A stretch of DNA of 34,820 nucleotides, taken from a virus. Position 1 is the first letter of the stretch. Each line of letters starts with the position of its first letter. The position numbers were made by a program, and so were the translations under genes. The stretch is taken from positions 1 to 34,820 of IMG/VR virus record IMGVR_UViG_3300030061_003235; one strand, 5' to 3'. The notes under the pieces were generated by a model. The model ran no database searches, was not told the origin of the DNA, and worked only from the letters and a program-made list of their open reading frames with translations. This document shows, piece after piece, positions 8,960 to 21,431 of the stretch.

Positions 8960-9781
8960 GTGCCACGACGAGATTACCCCAGGAAAAGAACCACAGAAGA
9001 GATTAGATCGTTGTTCACTAATGTGGCAACAACTAATCATTTTGAGTTTCAACTCTTGGCATTTCCCTCTGGGTTGTTGAGTTTTATTCAACAAAAAGAA
9101 CCATTACTGTCAAGATATTTTCTGAGTAGAGAACTGAGTCTGTTATGTAAAGGAGCAGAACTTCCTGGTGCTGCCTTTGCTACGGCTCAGATCAAGGGCA
9201 ATTATATGGGTATCACCCAAAAATATGCTCACACCAGAGTCTTTACTGACAGTTCATTCACATTTATTGTGGATAAACAATATAAAGTATTAAAATTCTT
9301 CCAACTGTGGCAAGAATTTATTGCAAGTGGTGGAGAGGTATCCAGAGATAAGAAAGCATACTATAATAGAATGATCTTTCCCGACAACTACAAATGTAGT
9401 CAAATGGGAATAACAAAATTTGACAAAGATCACTTTCAAAAGGTAGACTATACCTTTATCAATGCATTCCCGACTAACATTGTTCCATCTGCTGTAGATT
9501 ATGCCAACAACAGAATTCTAGAGGTAACAATCACATTCTCTTATGACCGTTATGTCCTTGGCAGTATTAGTAGTTTAGATGCTAAATCTGATCAAAGAAC
9601 ATTACCTAATTATGTTCCTGATATTGACCTTAGTTTCGATTACAAATTTAATCCTGGAGATTTTGAATACTCATCAAAACCTAGAGGAGATGGTGCTACT
9701 TCTGGAAAAGTTGACTCTGACTTGCCTCCTTCCTCTGGTGGTGCTATTCGACTTGATGTAATTCCTTATCAAGGATCATAA
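8960..9781 (+). CDS. Tail-tube-fold structural protein (gp54/gp19-like)
   Basis: This 273-residue protein starts at GTG 8960; there is no nearby ATG, and AGG lies 8 bases upstream. It has the marks of tail tube proteins: FEFQLLAFPSGLLSF, LLCKGAELPGAAFATAQIKGNYMG (about residues 61-84, like the gp19 strand with LPG), YAHTRVFTDSSFTFIVDKQYKVLKFFQLWQEFI and YDRYVLG. Length and fold resemblance suggest a tail tube initiator like T4 gp54, or a second tube-like protein. It opens the plus-strand hub operon opposite gp4/gp48. A low-complexity Gly/Ser/Pro C-terminus follows residue 235. The structural class is fairly sure; the gp54 equivalence is inferred. Confidence 0.7.
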   Translation: MPRRDYPRKRTTEEIRSLFTNVATTNHFEFQLLAFPSGLLSFIQQKEPLLSRYFLSRELSLLCKGAELPGAAFATAQIKGNYMGITQKYAHTRVFTDSSFTFIVDKQYKVLKFFQLWQEFIASGGEVSRDKKAYYNRMIFPDNYKCSQMGITKFDKDHFQKVDYTFINAFPTNIVPSAVDYANNRILEVTITFSYDRYVLGSISSLDAKSDQRTLPNYVPDIDLSFDYKFNPGDFEYSSKPRGDGATSGKVDSDLPPSSGGAIRLDVIPYQGS

Positions 9782-9806: not shown

Positions 9807-10520
9807 ATGGCTTTACCAAAAATTGCAACTCCTACATTTGAGTTGATTATTCCGTCCACTAAGAAAAAAATTAAGTATCGTCCATTTCTAGTTAAAGAAG
9901 AGAAAGTTCTTGTTCTGGCAATGGAAAGTGAAGACATCGAGCAGATTGCAAGGGCAATCAAAGATGTTCTCTCAGCATGCATTATCACTCGTGGTGTGAA
10001 AGTAAATGAACTTTCCACATTTGATATTGAATATCTCTTCTTAAATGTTCGTGGCAAATCTGTAGGTGAATCTATTGATGTCATTGTCACCTGTCAAGAT
10101 GATGGGGAAACTAAGGTTCCTTTGACTATCTTTATTGATGAAATTAAGGTAGTTGATTATCCTGAGCACAAATCTGATATCAAACTAGATGATACTTTAA
10201 CTCTCAGGATGAAGTATCCATCTTTGGGTGAATTCATCACTCAAAACTTTGGAGATGGACTTGACCTACAATCTTCTTTTGATGTTATTGCATCATGCAT
10301 TGACATGATTTATTCAGATGAAGAGACATGGGAATCAAAGGATACTCCTAAAAAGGAATGGGTTGAATTTGTTGAACAACTAAATTCGTCTCAGTTCAAA
10401 GAGATTGAACATTTCTTCAATACAATGCCCAAACTTTCTCACACTGTCAAGTATGAAAACCCAAATACTGGTGTAGAAAATGAGGTTGTACTTGAGGGAT
10501 TAGCATCTTTTTTCAGTTAG
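9807..10520 (+). CDS. gp26: Baseplate hub assembly protein gp26
   Basis: This 237-residue protein matches the T4 gp26 (T4_baseplate) family: PKIATPTFELIIPSTKKKIKYRPFLVKEEKVLVLAMESED in the N-terminal 45 residues, then FDIEYLFLNVRGKSVGESIDV (about residues 72-92). In T4 it is needed for hub assembly but is not a major virion component, which suggests a chaperone role. Its last codons are TCT TTT TTC AGT TAG, forming a T TTT TTC slippery heptamer. A small ORF in the -1 frame begins two bases after the stop and is open back to the heptamer. A -1 shift would give a fusion of about 298 residues, as with lambda gpG and gpGT. Confidence 0.92.
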   Translation: MALPKIATPTFELIIPSTKKKIKYRPFLVKEEKVLVLAMESEDIEQIARAIKDVLSACIITRGVKVNELSTFDIEYLFLNVRGKSVGESIDVIVTCQDDGETKVPLTIFIDEIKVVDYPEHKSDIKLDDTLTLRMKYPSLGEFITQNFGDGLDLQSSFDVIASCIDMIYSDEETWESKDTPKKEWVEFVEQLNSSQFKEIEHFFNTMPKLSHTVKYENPNTGVENEVVLEGLASFFS

Positions 10521-10575
10521 CGATGCTGCATGAGGATATTGTCGCTTACTACAAAGTAAATTTCGCCCTCATGCA
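10508..10575 (+). promoter_or_regulatory. Candidate -1 programmed frameshift signal in gp26
   Basis: The heptamer TTTTTTC (10508-10514) is in the X XXY YYZ register relative to the gp26 frame. Twelve bases later, TGCATGAGG (10527-10535) pairs perfectly with CCTCATGCA (10567-10575), nine pairs around a 31-base loop. The loop itself holds a small TTAC/GTAA hairpin (10546-10549 with 10556-10559). The -1 frame after the shift reads Gln-Leu-Ala and then joins the small ORF at ATG 10523. Frameshifting itself is inferred. Confidence 0.65.
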
Positions 10576-10702
10576 ACATCATAAATACTCTCTGAGTGAT
10601 ATTGAAAACATGATCCCTTGGGAAAGGGACATTTATCTTAGTTTATTGGAGCAATTCATCGAAGAACAGAATTTAAAAGCACAGCAATCTAATGGTTATT
10701 GA
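10523..10702 (+). CDS. Small tail-assembly partner of gp26, probable frameshift product domain
   Basis: This 59-residue ORF encodes a helical protein with NFALMQHHKYSLSDIENMIPWERDIYLSLLEQFIEEQN. This pattern recurs, as I remember it, in small proteins following gp26-type genes in other large phages, where T4 carries gene 51. There is no ribosome binding site before ATG 10523, which lies two bases after the gp26 stop. It can be made by termination-reinitiation, or as the C-terminal part of a gp26 frameshift fusion. The His-His and acidic helix resemble the small T-like extensions of tail chaperones. It overlaps the start of the next gene by 11 bases. Confidence 0.72.
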   Translation: MLHEDIVAYYKVNFALMQHHKYSLSDIENMIPWERDIYLSLLEQFIEEQNLKAQQSNGY

Positions 10703-12368
10703 TCCCACAAAACTACTTCCACCAGGAAAAGAAGGAACTCCCGAGGGTAGAGTGGACAACCCTGGAGTTCCTGAGGGTAATTTAACTGTAAAGCAATTTA
10801 ATTCTTTAAATAAAAATATTTTTGCAATCCAAAGAAATTTGGGTGCAATTGCAGATCTAATTGGGCAAAGAAGTGCTCAAGATGCACAGGAAGATAAGCA
10901 GGAAATTCAGCAGAAAAGAAAATCTGCTGATGAATTAAAGAAGGGAACCAAAGAAAACTTTCTTGAATCTTCTATTAAGCAGGGATTACTCAAACCTCTT
11001 AAGTCTCTCAAGAAAAAAGTAGATGGTCCTTTTGGTAGGTTGATGAAAGCCCTTGAGGCTATGTTCTTAGGATGGTTGGGAATAAAGGGAATAGATGCTT
11101 TGGAAGCATGGTCAGAAGGTGATAATGAAGCATTTGAAAAAATAAAGAATGACATCATTAAAGGATTAGCAATCGCTGGTGGTATTGCACTTGCTCTGAA
11201 TGGTGGTATTGGTGCTATTACTGGAGCAATCAGTGGTGTTCTTACATCAATGTTGCTTAACCTTCCAAAGTTACTTGGACTATTGGCAAATCCCTATGTA
11301 ATGCTAGGTGCTTTAGCGATAGGGGCTGGAATCCAACTTTATGATATCCTTAGAAATGATAGACTTAGTGGCGGTCGATCTAGTTATGAGTCCTATACGC
11401 AGGGTGTCATGGACATCATGGCTAGCGAGGGCAAAGAAGCAGCAATGAGATATCTTGCGAATCAAAAAGCACAGTTGTTGTTAAAGGAACCTAGATTAGC
11501 AAAACCAAATCTGTTTGATAGAGCTCTCACCCCTGGTGGTGCTCTTCTTAATGAAATTGAGGCGAATGAGAGGTCAGTTGAATCAGGAGAATTTGATTAT
11601 CTGTTAAAAGAGAGTTTAACTGAGGATGATCTGAAGATATTTAATGATATTACTGCTGCTATTAAAAAAGTAAAATTATATGATGACAAATATGATCAAC
11701 TAGAGAAAGAGGTAGAAGCAGCACTTACAGCTAGTGGTGGTTATGATGAACTATCTGCTGCTGATAAACGGAAGTTTGATAGTCTTGCAGTTTTAAAGCA
11801 GCAGATTGTTAAATCTATGAATTTTGTTAGATCGTTGAGAGATAAACTGTCAAACGATGCTCAGAAATTCTTCAATGCTAGAGTAGATTTATCTAACCCA
11901 GCTATGTTCAATGCTTCGACTCTTGATATTCCATTGTTTGAGGATCAAACTGGAATTAGAATTCGTGCTGGAGATGCTGATCCTGGTAGATTAAAAGATT
12001 TGGATGGATTGGTTGAAAGACTAGAAAAAGATCTGGGTAAAACATCTAGCAGTCCAACTAATGCAACTTCTAATACCTCTGTAGAGCAAATACCAGAATC
12101 AAATACACCAACAAACATAAAACCAGCACAGATAATTGATATTGATGACAACAAACTAGGAATTAAACTTGAACCAGTCTCTAGGAATTTTCGTAATATA
12201 GAAGAAAGTACATCTAATCCATTGGTAACTGTTATTCCAATTGATGACCGAGGTATTCCTACTGAGGAACCAGTTGCGTCCACTCCATCGGCAACTTCAT
12301 TTCCTATCATAGAAACATCTAATCCTTTTAATGATCATCTTGCTTTTGCATTCTCTATGTATAGCTAA
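10692..12368 (+). CDS. Putative tail tape-measure-like structural protein
   Basis: This 558-residue protein follows gp26 and the small chaperone-like ORF, the usual place of the tape measure. It has a proline-rich start, then a charged helical part (about residues 45-110). A long hydrophobic stretch spans residues 115-220 (AMFLGWLGIKG, IIKGLAIAGGIALALNGGIGAITGAI, LLGLLANPYVMLGALAIGAGIQL). A helical middle and a Ser/Thr/Pro-rich tail follow. Size is near T4 gp29 (590 residues), and hydrophobic segments are typical of tape measures. No sequence similarity to gp29 can be claimed by eye. It is coupled to the following gene by TAATG. Confidence 0.6.
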   Translation: MVIDPTKLLPPGKEGTPEGRVDNPGVPEGNLTVKQFNSLNKNIFAIQRNLGAIADLIGQRSAQDAQEDKQEIQQKRKSADELKKGTKENFLESSIKQGLLKPLKSLKKKVDGPFGRLMKALEAMFLGWLGIKGIDALEAWSEGDNEAFEKIKNDIIKGLAIAGGIALALNGGIGAITGAISGVLTSMLLNLPKLLGLLANPYVMLGALAIGAGIQLYDILRNDRLSGGRSSYESYTQGVMDIMASEGKEAAMRYLANQKAQLLLKEPRLAKPNLFDRALTPGGALLNEIEANERSVESGEFDYLLKESLTEDDLKIFNDITAAIKKVKLYDDKYDQLEKEVEAALTASGGYDELSAADKRKFDSLAVLKQQIVKSMNFVRSLRDKLSNDAQKFFNARVDLSNPAMFNASTLDIPLFEDQTGIRIRAGDADPGRLKDLDGLVERLEKDLGKTSSSPTNATSNTSVEQIPESNTPTNIKPAQIIDIDDNKLGIKLEPVSRNFRNIEESTSNPLVTVIPIDDRGIPTEEPVASTPSATSFPIIETSNPFNDHLAFAFSMYS

Positions 12369-13936
12369 TGAAATTAATCCCCACCAATGAAGCATTAAAT
12401 ATCGTTGATGTTGGTCTGCTTTCTGTTAGGCAGACCACACAGGGTATTAGGAAATCACTTGGTCAAGATATCAGAAAGAATAAAATTAGAGACAATACAA
12501 AATTAGGACTCGATAGATTAGAAGCAGATACTGCTAGAACGAAAGGCAAGGAAAAAATTATAGAAGCAAAACAACCAAATAATTTTATTAAAGGTGGAAT
12601 TGATGCTGCCGTAAAAGGATCTAAGAGTTTATTCTCTGGGTTGTTGAAAGCCGCTGGTTGGGTCATCCTTGACTGGTTAATTAATAATCTACCCACAGTT
12701 GTGGTAATTATTGAGGATGTAACTAATTTTGTTGTTAACTTGAAAAATAATTTTGTCAAAATTATCAATAGTGTGACTGCAGTCATGGATGGGATATACA
12801 ACACTGCAGCAGCATTGAGTAGAGATTTAATATCTGGTAAGATTTTTACTAGTGAAAGAGAGGTAACCAAAGAATTTGAAAAACTCACAGACTCATTCAA
12901 TCAATTGAATGTGGACATAGACACCACATTTAAACAATCAATTGAAGACCTAGAGGATTTAAAAGAACAAAGTGAACAAGAAATTCGTGATGCCAGACAA
13001 AAGTTAGGATTAGAACCTCTTGATCCACAACCAACAACACCACTAGCACCAACAAGATCAAGTGAACAAACAGAACAACTAGAAGAAGCAAAGAGTCAAT
13101 TAGATTCTGGAGAAATAACTCAAAATCAATATGACAACAGGGTAAATGAAATTTTGGAAACTCCCCCACCAGTAACAACTCAACCTCCAATAGAAGCACC
13201 TGCTCAATCTCAACGACCTGCACCTTCTCCTGGAGTAGAACCACAAACATCTGGATTAATATTCCAAGATACTGGCAAAAAACCTCCTGGATTTGCCATA
13301 GGAGATGGTATTGGTGCTGGAAGAAATCATATGGGATTAGATATCCCTGCGGAGTCTGGTTCTGCGCTTACGGTTCCCTCAGATTCTACTATCACTGATA
13401 AGAATTTTGAAAAAAATTATGGTAACTATGTTGTGTTCATGGATGCAAATGGACTAGAGCATTTTTATGGACACATGTTGGAACCGACTCCATATAATAG
13501 AGGTGATAAGGTTAAGCCAGGAGATGTTATTGGTAGAGTAGGATCAACTGGAAGATCTAGTGGACCACACTTGCATTGGGAACTTGGTAAAGCAGAAGGT
13601 ATTACTGGATATCCTAGAAGGAATGCAATTAATCCCATGGAATATGGATTCCCTGGCAGTGCTCCCTTTACTGGAGAAGTTGTTGGTCCACCTAGGAGAC
13701 TTGTTTCGGAATTGAAAGGTATGGAGAAACCACCATCAATGTTACCTTCTTATCAAACAACACAAGGAGATTCGTTAATAGTTCCATTCTCACTTGCATC
13801 TCTAAATATTGATAGTGAAAAGTCTTCCAAGGAAAACACCTCTGCTGAAGAATCAAACGAATTTACTGCTGCATATGCAGGTTATAACCCAGATTATATA
13901 AAAATTTTAAAGAATCTCAATAGGAAATTCACATAA
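12368..13936 (+). CDS. Virion-associated M23 peptidase with hydrophobic N-terminus
   Basis: This 522-residue protein combines three parts. The N-terminal helical and hydrophobic region has a membrane-like segment (GLLKAAGWVILDWLINNLPTVVVIIEDV) around residues 90-120. Next comes a Pro/Gln/Glu-rich linker (about 210-300). The third is an M23 (LytM/lysostaphin-type) zinc peptidase domain. Zinc ligands are visible: H321 and D325 in GRNHMGLD and H403 in GPHLHWE, with H401 as catalytic partner; YGNYVVFMDANGLEHFYGHM also fits. It probably opens the peptidoglycan during DNA entry. The surrounding genes encode the hub, so it may be the muralytic part replacing the lysozyme domain of T4 gp5, joined to a tape-measure-like N-terminus. 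Confidence 0.85.
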   Translation: MKLIPTNEALNIVDVGLLSVRQTTQGIRKSLGQDIRKNKIRDNTKLGLDRLEADTARTKGKEKIIEAKQPNNFIKGGIDAAVKGSKSLFSGLLKAAGWVILDWLINNLPTVVVIIEDVTNFVVNLKNNFVKIINSVTAVMDGIYNTAAALSRDLISGKIFTSEREVTKEFEKLTDSFNQLNVDIDTTFKQSIEDLEDLKEQSEQEIRDARQKLGLEPLDPQPTTPLAPTRSSEQTEQLEEAKSQLDSGEITQNQYDNRVNEILETPPPVTTQPPIEAPAQSQRPAPSPGVEPQTSGLIFQDTGKKPPGFAIGDGIGAGRNHMGLDIPAESGSALTVPSDSTITDKNFEKNYGNYVVFMDANGLEHFYGHMLEPTPYNRGDKVKPGDVIGRVGSTGRSSGPHLHWELGKAEGITGYPRRNAINPMEYGFPGSAPFTGEVVGPPRRLVSELKGMEKPPSMLPSYQTTQGDSLIVPFSLASLNIDSEKSSKENTSAEESNEFTAAYAGYNPDYIKILKNLNRKFT

Positions 13937-15228
13937 TGTCTGCAGTAACTGGAGCATCTGTATATCAAGAATTTACGATCACATCAAGTGATAATAAAAA
14001 AGTAGTGTCTATTATTGGTGGCGTTATTGATTTTCAGTACTATGAAGATCTATACTCTCCAGTGACAACTGCCATTATTCAAATTTCAAATACTGGTAAT
14101 ACTGTTGATGGGCAAGGATTATATTATGGACTTCCTATCAAGGGTGGCGAAAGAGTAAATTTTAAGATCAAAACTCCAGTTGATAGTTTAATAGGCAAAG
14201 GAGGTCTTTTTGAATATGTAATGTATGTTGATAAAGTAACCAATCATATTAATGATAGACAAGGTGAATTCTTTATGTTGCACCTGGTGTCACGAGAAAG
14301 TATCACAAATGATCAGTGTAGAGTTACCAGAAAGTATGTTGATAGGACTATAGATCAGTGTTTGGCAGAAATCATTGGACTAGTAGAACCTCTGCAACCA
14401 GTTAACTTTGAGAAAACAGAGAATATATATCCTTTCTTTGGTAATATGAGAAAGCCTTTCACATGGGCAATGCAATTAGCATCAAAAGCAATTCCTGTTG
14501 ATTCTAAAAGTAAATCCGCAGGATTCTTCTTTTGGCAAACAAAAAGAGGATTTAATTTTAGATCTATCGATGGTTTGATTAAATTTGCCATAGAAAATAA
14601 AGCAACTGTACAGAAATATTATTATAGACAGGATATGAGAAATCAGTATGAAGGTACTAATGCCACTGGAATACTTGACTTCAAAGAAAACAAAGCTGTA
14701 GATCTTAGTAATTCACTTAATAGGGGAGAATTTTCTTCATATCGTGTTTACTTCAATCCATTAGATTTTACCTTTACTCCACCAAACGAAGCTAGAATCT
14801 TATCTGACCCTAAGACTTATTTGGGAGAGAAGGAAGATCTTCCATTAATTGTAGATCCAGAAAACATTCCAGCAACAATGTGGGCTCCCAGAGTTCTCAG
14901 TGGGGTGTATAATGTAGGGACACTGGTTGCTGGAGTATCTACAGCAATTAGTTACAACCCACTTGATGAAGTTGCTCAGGGAGCATCTAGGTATAGTTCA
15001 TTTTTTAATATTGACTATACCGTCACGGTTCCAGTGAACACTAATTTATGTGCAGGAGACCCAGTTTTCTTAGAATTACCTAAGACGACTGTGGGTACTC
15101 AGGATATAGACCGCAAACAGAGTGGTCTATATATTATTAAGGAAATCACTCATAAGTTCCTTCCAAATAAATCATACACTTGTATGAGAGTGGTTAGAGA
15201 TCATCATGGTATTAACACACAAAAGTAA
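13936..15228 (+). CDS. Baseplate hub protein, gp27-like
   Basis: This 430-residue beta-rich protein lies before the gp5-like gene, as gp27 relatives often do. It contains YQEFTITSSDNKKVVSIIGGVIDFQYYEDLYSP, LHLVSRESITNDQCRV, RKPFTWAMQLASKAIP (about residues 171-186) and GFFFWQTKRGFNFRSID. These are segments of the hub fold shared by gp27, phage Mu gp44 and P2 gpD. The C-terminal PVNTNLCAGDPVFLELPK ... SGLYIIKEITHKF is typical for the last hub domain. The protein would form the trimeric torus carrying the gp5-like spike. The gp27 equivalence is based on pattern and position, not on alignment. Coupled by TAATG upstream. Confidence 0.75.
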   Translation: MSAVTGASVYQEFTITSSDNKKVVSIIGGVIDFQYYEDLYSPVTTAIIQISNTGNTVDGQGLYYGLPIKGGERVNFKIKTPVDSLIGKGGLFEYVMYVDKVTNHINDRQGEFFMLHLVSRESITNDQCRVTRKYVDRTIDQCLAEIIGLVEPLQPVNFEKTENIYPFFGNMRKPFTWAMQLASKAIPVDSKSKSAGFFFWQTKRGFNFRSIDGLIKFAIENKATVQKYYYRQDMRNQYEGTNATGILDFKENKAVDLSNSLNRGEFSSYRVYFNPLDFTFTPPNEARILSDPKTYLGEKEDLPLIVDPENIPATMWAPRVLSGVYNVGTLVAGVSTAISYNPLDEVAQGASRYSSFFNIDYTVTVPVNTNLCAGDPVFLELPKTTVGTQDIDRKQSGLYIIKEITHKFLPNKSYTCMRVVRDHHGINTQK

Positions 15229-15229
15229 T

Positions 15230-15457
15230 ATGGAAAGCATCGAACAGCACATCCAAAAGGATAGAGAAATCCTTGAGAATCCAACAACTAATCCACAGAT
15301 GCGTCGTCATATTGAGAGTGAATTGCACGACCTAGAAGAGTATGCTGAGCACCACAAAAAAGATATTGAGGCTGGTGATCATCATGACCCAACACCATTA
15401 GAAATGTATTGTGATAATAATCCTGATGCAGATGAATGTAGGATCTACGAAGACTAA
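15230..15457 (+). CDS. cp12: CP12-type Calvin-cycle inhibitor
   Basis: CP12 is a small disordered protein that brings together glyceraldehyde-3-phosphate dehydrogenase and phosphoribulokinase, shutting off the Calvin cycle. The C-terminal part PLEMYCDNNPDADECRIYED shows the CP12 signature with two cysteines (C61 and C70), eight residues apart, forming the redox loop that binds GAPDH. The 75-residue protein has an acidic helical N-terminus but lacks the N-terminal cysteine pair of plant CP12. Start at ATG 15230, one base after the previous stop; an in-frame ATG at 15206 would lie in the preceding gene. Phage CP12 is thought to divert carbon to the pentose phosphate pathway. Here it lies inside the baseplate hub operon. 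Confidence 0.88.
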   Translation: MESIEQHIQKDREILENPTTNPQMRRHIESELHDLEEYAEHHKKDIEAGDHHDPTPLEMYCDNNPDADECRIYED

Positions 15458-20810: not shown

Positions 20811-21330
20811 ATTGAAAGTCTTTGACAATTTTTTATCACAAAAACATTTTCAAGAACTCGTAGAGTATATTGATAATTGTGCATGGCACTACAATTCGAT
20901 GATTGTATATGATAAATCAAATACTAATCCAGAAGATAAAGATTATGTAGGACCAGATACTCCAAATGAATATCAAATGGTCATGCCAATATGGTCACAG
21001 GGATGGGTCTATGAAAGATATGTTGCAGAATTATTTTCCACATATCTTGAACCTAGAGCATGGGTTAGAATCAAAGCAAATTTCTCACCAAAGAGAATTG
21101 AAATCATTGAAAATGACTTGCACATTGATACTAACCATGGCGATTTGACGGCTATTTTCTACATAAACTCGAACGATGGATACTCACATTTTAAGAGTGG
21201 TAAGAGAGTAGAGAGTGTTGCCAATCGTATAGTAATCTTTCCTAGAGATACAATGCATAGCGGCACTACCTCTACTACAGATCATAGAAAGGTTATAAAT
21301 TTTAATTATTTTGGGAGCATGGCGGAATAG
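20800..21330 (+). CDS. 2-oxoglutarate/Fe(II)-dependent oxygenase
   Basis: This 176-residue protein has the 2OG-Fe(II) facial triad: H108 and D110 in LHIDTNHGD, H153 in RDTMHSG, and R163 (HRKVINF) for 2-oxoglutarate. The core strands LTAIFYINSNDGYSHFKSG and NRIVIFPRD fit the family. Start at ATG 20800 overlaps the nitrilase end; an in-frame ATG further upstream (20767) lies within the nitrilase gene. The substrate is unknown; cyanophages often carry several such enzymes. The last 18 bases, coding GSMAE and stop, are also the first 18 bases of the tRNA-Leu gene, so the C-terminus was probably set by the tRNA. Confidence 0.85.
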   Translation: MTFELKVFDNFLSQKHFQELVEYIDNCAWHYNSMIVYDKSNTNPEDKDYVGPDTPNEYQMVMPIWSQGWVYERYVAELFSTYLEPRAWVRIKANFSPKRIEIIENDLHIDTNHGDLTAIFYINSNDGYSHFKSGKRVESVANRIVIFPRDTMHSGTTSTTDHRKVINFNYFGSMAE

Positions 21331-21396
21331 GTAGACGCACCAGACTTAAAATCTGTTGACCGCAAGGTCGTGGGGGTTCAAGTCCCCCTGCTCCTA
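21313..21396 (+). tRNA. tRNA-Leu (anticodon UAA)
   Basis: An 84-base sequence folds as a class II tRNA. The acceptor arm GGGAGCA (21313-21319) pairs with TGCTCCT (21389-21395), with one G-U pair. The anticodon loop CTTAAAA has anticodon TAA within a CAGA/TCTG stem. The long variable arm GACCGCAAGGTC is typical for leucine. The T arm is GGGGGTTCAAGTCCCCC. CCA is not encoded. It reads UUA, a codon commoner in the A/T-rich phage than in GC-rich Synechococcus hosts. It overlaps the upstream oxygenase by 18 bases. Confidence 0.95.
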
Positions 21397-21431
21397 TATA
21401 AAGAAGGTACACTTCCTAATCGCATAATAAA

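Follow-up and report, generated by a model that had tools for sequence, protein, structure and literature searches.

We analysed 34,820 nucleotides of viral DNA (IMG/VR record IMGVR_UViG_3300030061_003235, positions 1 to 34,820), referred to below as the window. We conclude, with high confidence, that gp26 and the small open reading frame (ORF) behind it are a single tail assembly chaperone gene, from which two protein forms are made by -1 ribosomal frameshifting. Judging from their genomes, T4-like cyanobacterial viruses of the ocean very probably produce both forms.

A slippery heptamer and an open -1 frame at the end of gp26

The short form, gp26 (TAC-N or G-like; PF12322, phrog_150), has 237 residues and is encoded at positions 9807-10520 of the + strand, with a TAG stop codon at 10518-10520. 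Its last codons read GCA TCT TTT TTC AGT TAG. The heptamer T TTT TTC (10508-10514, + strand) thus stands in the X XXY YYZ register, with one codon between it and the stop. Read in the -1 frame from 10514, the sequence continues CAG TTA GCG ATG (QLAMLHED...) and meets no stop until 10702. The translation of this frame is QLAMLHEDIVAYYK... and we refer to it as the T domain (10514-10702, + strand; phrog_634, phrog_150 and homology to gp51). It would add 62 residues after Phe236. The predicted long-form peptide across the junction is ...EGLASFFQLAMLHED..., which contains SFFQLAMLHED, and the predicted slip product has 236 + 62 = 298 residues. Most of this region is commonly annotated as a separate 59-residue ORF (10523-10702, + strand) named "gp51", a baseplate hub assembly catalyst. 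We looked for a Shine-Dalgarno sequence 5-12 nt before the ATG at 10523 and found none. A heptamer in exact register, a small ORF that continues gp26 in the -1 frame without its own ribosome binding site and a fusion of about 298 residues had all been proposed in a sequence-only reading of this DNA. Direct reading bears out each of them.

Phase and slippery site are conserved among relatives

Conservation was assessed using 80 gp26 relatives from IMG/VR, 179 more obtained with distant queries and 12 diverse named phages. An automated survey used a profile to place the T domain and also recorded the gp26 stop and every in-register heptamer. This gave 262 usable junctions, forming 55 clusters at 70% identity and drawn from many phage groups. 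The T domain lay in the -1 phase at all 262. An in-register TTTTTTN was present in 261 of the 262 junctions and 54 of the 55 clusters. Its last base can be C, T, A or G; the run is exactly TTTTTTC in the window and 29 of 55 clusters, and some relatives have runs of 7-8 T. Elsewhere in gp26 (13,058 codons, 55 representatives), TTTTTT occurs once in register and 15 times out of register. The heptamer at the end of gp26 is therefore far beyond chance.

The surrounding codons are also constrained. Immediately before the run stands GAT, AGT, TCT or AAT, all of them codons that end in T (p about 1e-12), and TTT is used without exception as the first Phe codon (p about 1e-14); both probabilities assume independent draws from the codon usage of the same genes and ignore shared ancestry, so the true figures are less extreme, and our conclusion does not depend on them. 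Since all four last bases are used while the T run is kept, it is the nucleotides that are conserved and not the Phe-Phe pair. The sequence-only reading had named, as evidence that would count against it, relatives with the small ORF in the 0 or +1 phase or lacking a slippery site. None of the 262 junctions has either phase and only one lacks TTTTTTN; hence, every computable argument of this kind failed.

Two groups of phages have unusual sites. In Vibrio phages K474 (L092) and VP-1 (L280) and Serratia phage Kevin (L281), the T domain is in the -1 phase and TTTTTTN is absent. Shorter runs (CTTTTTG, GTTTTTC and GTTTTC) are found instead, and the slip site may work differently. VP-1 and Kevin are classed as Ackermannviridae. 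In L231, L232 and L234, 31 nt separate the heptamer from the gp26 stop, compared with 7-13 nt elsewhere, and the T domain follows the heptamer directly in the -1 frame. The short form there hence has extra residues past Phe-Phe.

Many T domains have no start codon

We inspected the -1 frame for ways to begin translation. No ATG, GTG or TTG precedes the conserved T domain in 25 of 55 clusters, or 107 of 262 loci. In these clusters the domain can therefore be reached only through frameshifting. It is conserved right up to the heptamer, also where a start codon is missing. The ATG of the 59-residue ORF is kept in the clade of the window, 2 nt after the gp26 stop in every relative, and an ATG directly after the stop is also present in the P-SSM2-like clade; it is missing from many other relatives. 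Reinitiation at ATG 10523 may thus yield a free T protein in the clade of the window. It is unable to explain the whole family.

Gene calls reflect this arrangement. The GenBank call for P-SSM7 starts at an internal codon, giving a 31-residue "gp51". For AS-szw, Aeh1, S13 and vB_VmeM-32, the T domain is omitted from the GenBank gene calls altogether. The Aeh1 site reads GAT TTT TTC GAC TGA and is followed by a clear T domain in the -1 frame. Among the GenBank records examined, none had a joined gp26/T gene.

A Shine-Dalgarno-like element precedes the heptamer and a stem follows it

Pairing energy with the 16S rRNA tail has a sharp peak 8-9 nt upstream of the heptamer. The mean is -6.2 kcal/mol at the peak and -0.77 in the rest of the gene. 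Values of -4 kcal/mol or lower occur in 78% of clusters, compared with 4.7% of control positions. In the window, the peak corresponds to GAGGGA (10494-10499, + strand), a putative upstream stimulator 8 nt before the heptamer. The element is encoded by Leu-Glu-Gly codons. Of 36 clusters, 26 use GAG for Glu, compared with a background of 31% (p=4e-7). This excess indicates that, as far as codon choice can tell, the element appears to be selected as a nucleotide sequence. It is a putative frameshift signal that the earlier reading did not include.

That reading did describe a perfect 9-bp stem (10527-10535 with 10567-10575), which proved exact. Including one C.A mismatch, the full stem is 14 positions long, its 5' arm at 10522-10535 and its 3' arm at 10567-10580 (+ strand), leaving a spacer of 7 nt after the heptamer. 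The minimum free energy is -20.7 kcal/mol, with a z-score of -3.8 on a segment chosen around the stem and -2.7 on a longer stretch. Across 15 distinct sequences from the clade of the window, 94.8% of stem cells are paired, whereas slid controls gave 24-52%. Two pairs covary and nine cells carry double changes, a number reached in 0 of 500 shuffles. Across clusters, downstream folding is stronger than in control windows of the same gene (mean z -1.54 vs -0.26, p=1e-7). The stems are clade-specific and differ between clades. The stem of the P-SSM2-like clade (L037 group) is conserved and almost perfect, with too little variation in its pairs for covariation to be informative. Several clades (e.g. 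L192, L251 and L255) have no strong downstream structure.

gp26 has a predicted chaperone-like fold

We examined the identity of both protein parts. Over its full length (residues 9-236), gp26 matches PF12322, the T4 gp26 family (E=2e-70), and it also matches phrog_150 (E=3e-77). The phrog_150 profile has 282 positions, of which 5-232 align with gp26 and 239-278 with the small ORF; the same profile covers T4-type gp51 end to end. The T domain matches phrog_634 (E=1e-26). The gp26 of the window is homologous to T4 gp26 throughout and its T domain to the C-terminus of T4-type gp51, and the T4 proteins fall in phrog_150 as well.

The AlphaFold2 prediction for gp26 has a pLDDT of 88. A VIA search of the PDB with this model returned 3fgx (Z 7.8), 2ob9 (Z 7.8) and 3klu (Z 7.2), followed by 5ir0 at 4.9 and then an unrelated entry at 4.3. 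The matches span about 85 N-terminal residues. Entry 2ob9 is HK97 gp13, which aligns with gp26 residues 1-86 (Z 7.8, rmsd 4.0, 84 residues, 11% identity); gp26 differs in having 150 further residues. Entries 3fgx and 3klu we take to be prophage chaperones as well. The fold match is moderate, with a Z of 7.8 but a Foldseek E above 1. The predicted fold of gp26 thus resembles that of the HK97 tail assembly chaperone. At the sequence level, the gp26 profile matched no solved structure, and no chaperone family of other phages was detected. Neither the T domain nor the 558-residue product of the gene that follows received a chaperone or tape measure name from Pfam or NCBIfam.

We also looked at the neighbouring genes. 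Immediately upstream of gp26 is a tail tube gene (8960-9781, + strand; phrog_45 E=7e-38, PF23849 E=2e-19). Downstream, the 558-residue gene (10692-12368, + strand) overlaps the end of the T domain by 11 nt. It is a candidate tape measure gene by its position and a hydrophobic stretch at about residues 155-212; profile searches gave it no family match. Pelagiphage HTVC008M has a gene identified as tape measure by profile (phrog_58 E=5e-14) a short way downstream of its T domain. The sequence-only reading had regarded gp26 and the small protein as equivalents of tail assembly chaperones. The HK97 gp13 fold match, the tail tube gene upstream and the HTVC008M tape measure support this in part. The same reading had placed the small ORF in the position of T4 gene 51, which is too simple, because T4-type gp51 is the whole long form, with a gp26-like N-domain as well as a T domain.

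Other neighbours were noted. The second gene after the chaperone (12368-13936) encodes a protein of 522 residues, of which 320-408 form an M23 metallopeptidase domain; it has weak matches to the peptidase parts of tape measure profiles. In five pelagiphage, rhizobial and methylophilales phages (L276, L084, L085, L086 and L282), the T domain and the tape-measure-like gene are separated by an extra gene of about 110-140 residues.

Proposed mechanism and alternatives

According to our model, most ribosomes would terminate at TAG 10518 and release the 237-residue short form. A minority would be stalled by the downstream stem, probably also by rRNA pairing with GAGGGA. The two Phe-tRNAs on U UUU UUC would then slip back one base and re-pair as UUU UUU. 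Ribosomes that have slipped would read on through the T domain and make a minor long form of 298 residues. The roles proposed for the two forms are taken from lambda gpG/gpGT (Xu, Hendrix and Duda 2004; reviewed in PMC5009743): the short form may coat the tape measure protein, and the T domain may recruit tail-tube subunits.

The small ORF could instead be an independent gene, translated by termination and reinitiation at the ATG 2 nt past the stop, with T6 being just a Phe-Phe motif. Public records annotate it separately, and the ATG does stand right after the stop in the clade of the window and in the P-SSM2-like clade. We nevertheless consider this highly improbable. The 25 clusters devoid of a usable start codon still conserve the domain up to the heptamer, the final slippery base takes all four letters and so also produces Phe-Leu while the run itself is constant, and the T domain is never in phase +1 or 0. 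Alternatively, RNA polymerase rather than the ribosome might slip on the T run to make the fusion, for which the 7-8 T of some relatives could be cited. This is extremely improbable, since the TTTTTTC of the window and 29 clusters is short for polymerase slippage, which moreover needs no codon register, yet the register is fixed in 261 of 262 junctions. The Shine-Dalgarno-like element and the stem are also at distances suited to ribosomes and not to polymerase.

A different possibility accepts the frameshift and assigns its products to baseplate hub assembly only, with no role as tape measure chaperones. T4 gp26 and gp51 are indeed listed as hub assembly chaperones (PMC3004832). We think such a restricted role unlikely; the HK97 gp13 fold match is a trait of tail assembly chaperones, and so are a location flanked by tail tube and tape-measure-like genes and the logic of a short and a long form. 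Furthermore, the two roles may coincide, because gp29 of the T4 type, which determines tail length, carries a hub subunit annotation as well. Ribosomal frameshifting within a tail assembly chaperone gene is therefore the interpretation that we carry forward.

T4-type phages encode the long form as a separate gene

In RB6 (T4 type), RB49, RB43, Aeromonas phage 25 and Acinetobacter phage Stupor, gp51 comprises a gp26-like N-domain and a T domain in one frame, and gp26 itself has no T domain. The fused form thus occurs as an ordinary gene, too. Unlike the arrangement in the window, the long form of these phages is a duplicated copy with its own gene and no frameshift, and the copy is often divergent from gp26. 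The window has no free-standing long form of gp51, only the T domain of 59-62 residues. Fused ORFs were found only in phages of the T4, RB49 and RB43 types. Straboviridae hold both layouts, with the frameshift in Aeh1, AS-szw, S13, vB_VmeM-32 and ValKK3 and not in T4-type phages.

In a phylogenetic tree, the five fused gp51 proteins group together in a single clade (100/100), and one branch (96/95) has all 20 frameshift-type proteins on the same side of it. One switch between the strategies therefore suffices. The root is set by midpoint only, and the tree does not fix the order of frameshifting and duplication. The results suggest that frameshifting is common among T4 relatives and that, depending on where the root lies, the split-gene layout of T4 replaced it once, later on, or the change went the other way. 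Tentatively, the three-part signal (Shine-Dalgarno-like element, U UUU UUN and a replaceable stem) could be ancestral to the chaperone genes of most T4-related myoviruses, including Kyanoviridae, Pootjesviridae, Emdodecavirus, Emmerichvirinae, Schizotequatrovirus and others, with the T4 branch swapping it once for gene duplication. If so, T4, the textbook model, would be the exception. An exchange between gene duplication and translational control can thus be tested directly.

Relation to known systems

The frameshift signal of E. coli dnaX consists of a Shine-Dalgarno-like element about 10 nt upstream, a slippery heptamer and a downstream stem. The three-part layout described here is similar; dnaX differs in its heptamer (A AAA AAG), in being a cellular gene and in that its efficiency is known. 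In lambda the heptamer is G GGA AAG, unlike the U UUU UUN of gp26, which is also larger and has an extra beta-rich C-terminal half. Lambda gpG/gpGT otherwise has the same plan: there is a short form and a long form made by -1 frameshifting, and the first ORF carries the slippery site at its 3' end (PMC5009743). Its gene lies between those for the tail tube and the tape measure; our site has a tail tube gene upstream and a candidate tape measure gene downstream. In the Vandenendeviridae phage Adele, a -1 frameshift is associated with a conserved poly-T tract near the end of a myovirus chaperone gene, and the T region was again mis-annotated as a separate ORF (PMC12846349). Unlike our case, the Adele motif is GTTTTT rather than TTTTTTN, and the phage belongs to a different family.

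The principle of frameshifting in T4-like chaperones is apparently already known. Poly-T frameshift signals in T4-like chaperone genes are attributed to Vladimirov et al. 2022 (Virology 566:9) by PMC12846349. Citing the same work, PMC10885494 (PRFect) notes that some T4-like phages carry a short gene and a fused longer gene, with no frameshifting. Our literature search, in which Vladimirov et al. 2022 is represented by the papers that cite it, found no cyanophage-specific description. Within the same limits, we found no text on the Shine-Dalgarno-like element, the covarying stem or the reason for a "truncated" cyanophage gp51. The earlier reading knew of no description for T4-like cyanophages; its claim to novelty is weakened by signals for T4-like chaperones that are apparently in print. 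Measured against those citing papers, the cyanophage case, the Shine-Dalgarno-like element, the stem, the absence of start codons and the explanation of gp51 may be additions.

That explanation concerns two oddities reported in 2010 (PMC3037559): in cyanophages gp51 had no more than some 20% of its normal length, and in Aeh1 it was "missing". Both would be resolved if the T domain is reached by frameshifting, since gp51 would then look truncated in cyanophages and absent in Aeh1. Cyanophage "gp51" would be the tail end of a longer chaperone form and not a separate protein. The annotation of this near-core gene would need correcting across hundreds of genomes of T4-like phages.

Other features of the window

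A CP12 gene, encoding a regulator of host metabolism (15206-15457; PF02672 E=2e-15), lies within the tail and baseplate block, sharing about 23 nt with the end of the tail gene upstream of it. The sole tRNA gene found in the window is a tRNA-Leu with a TAA anticodon (21312-21397).
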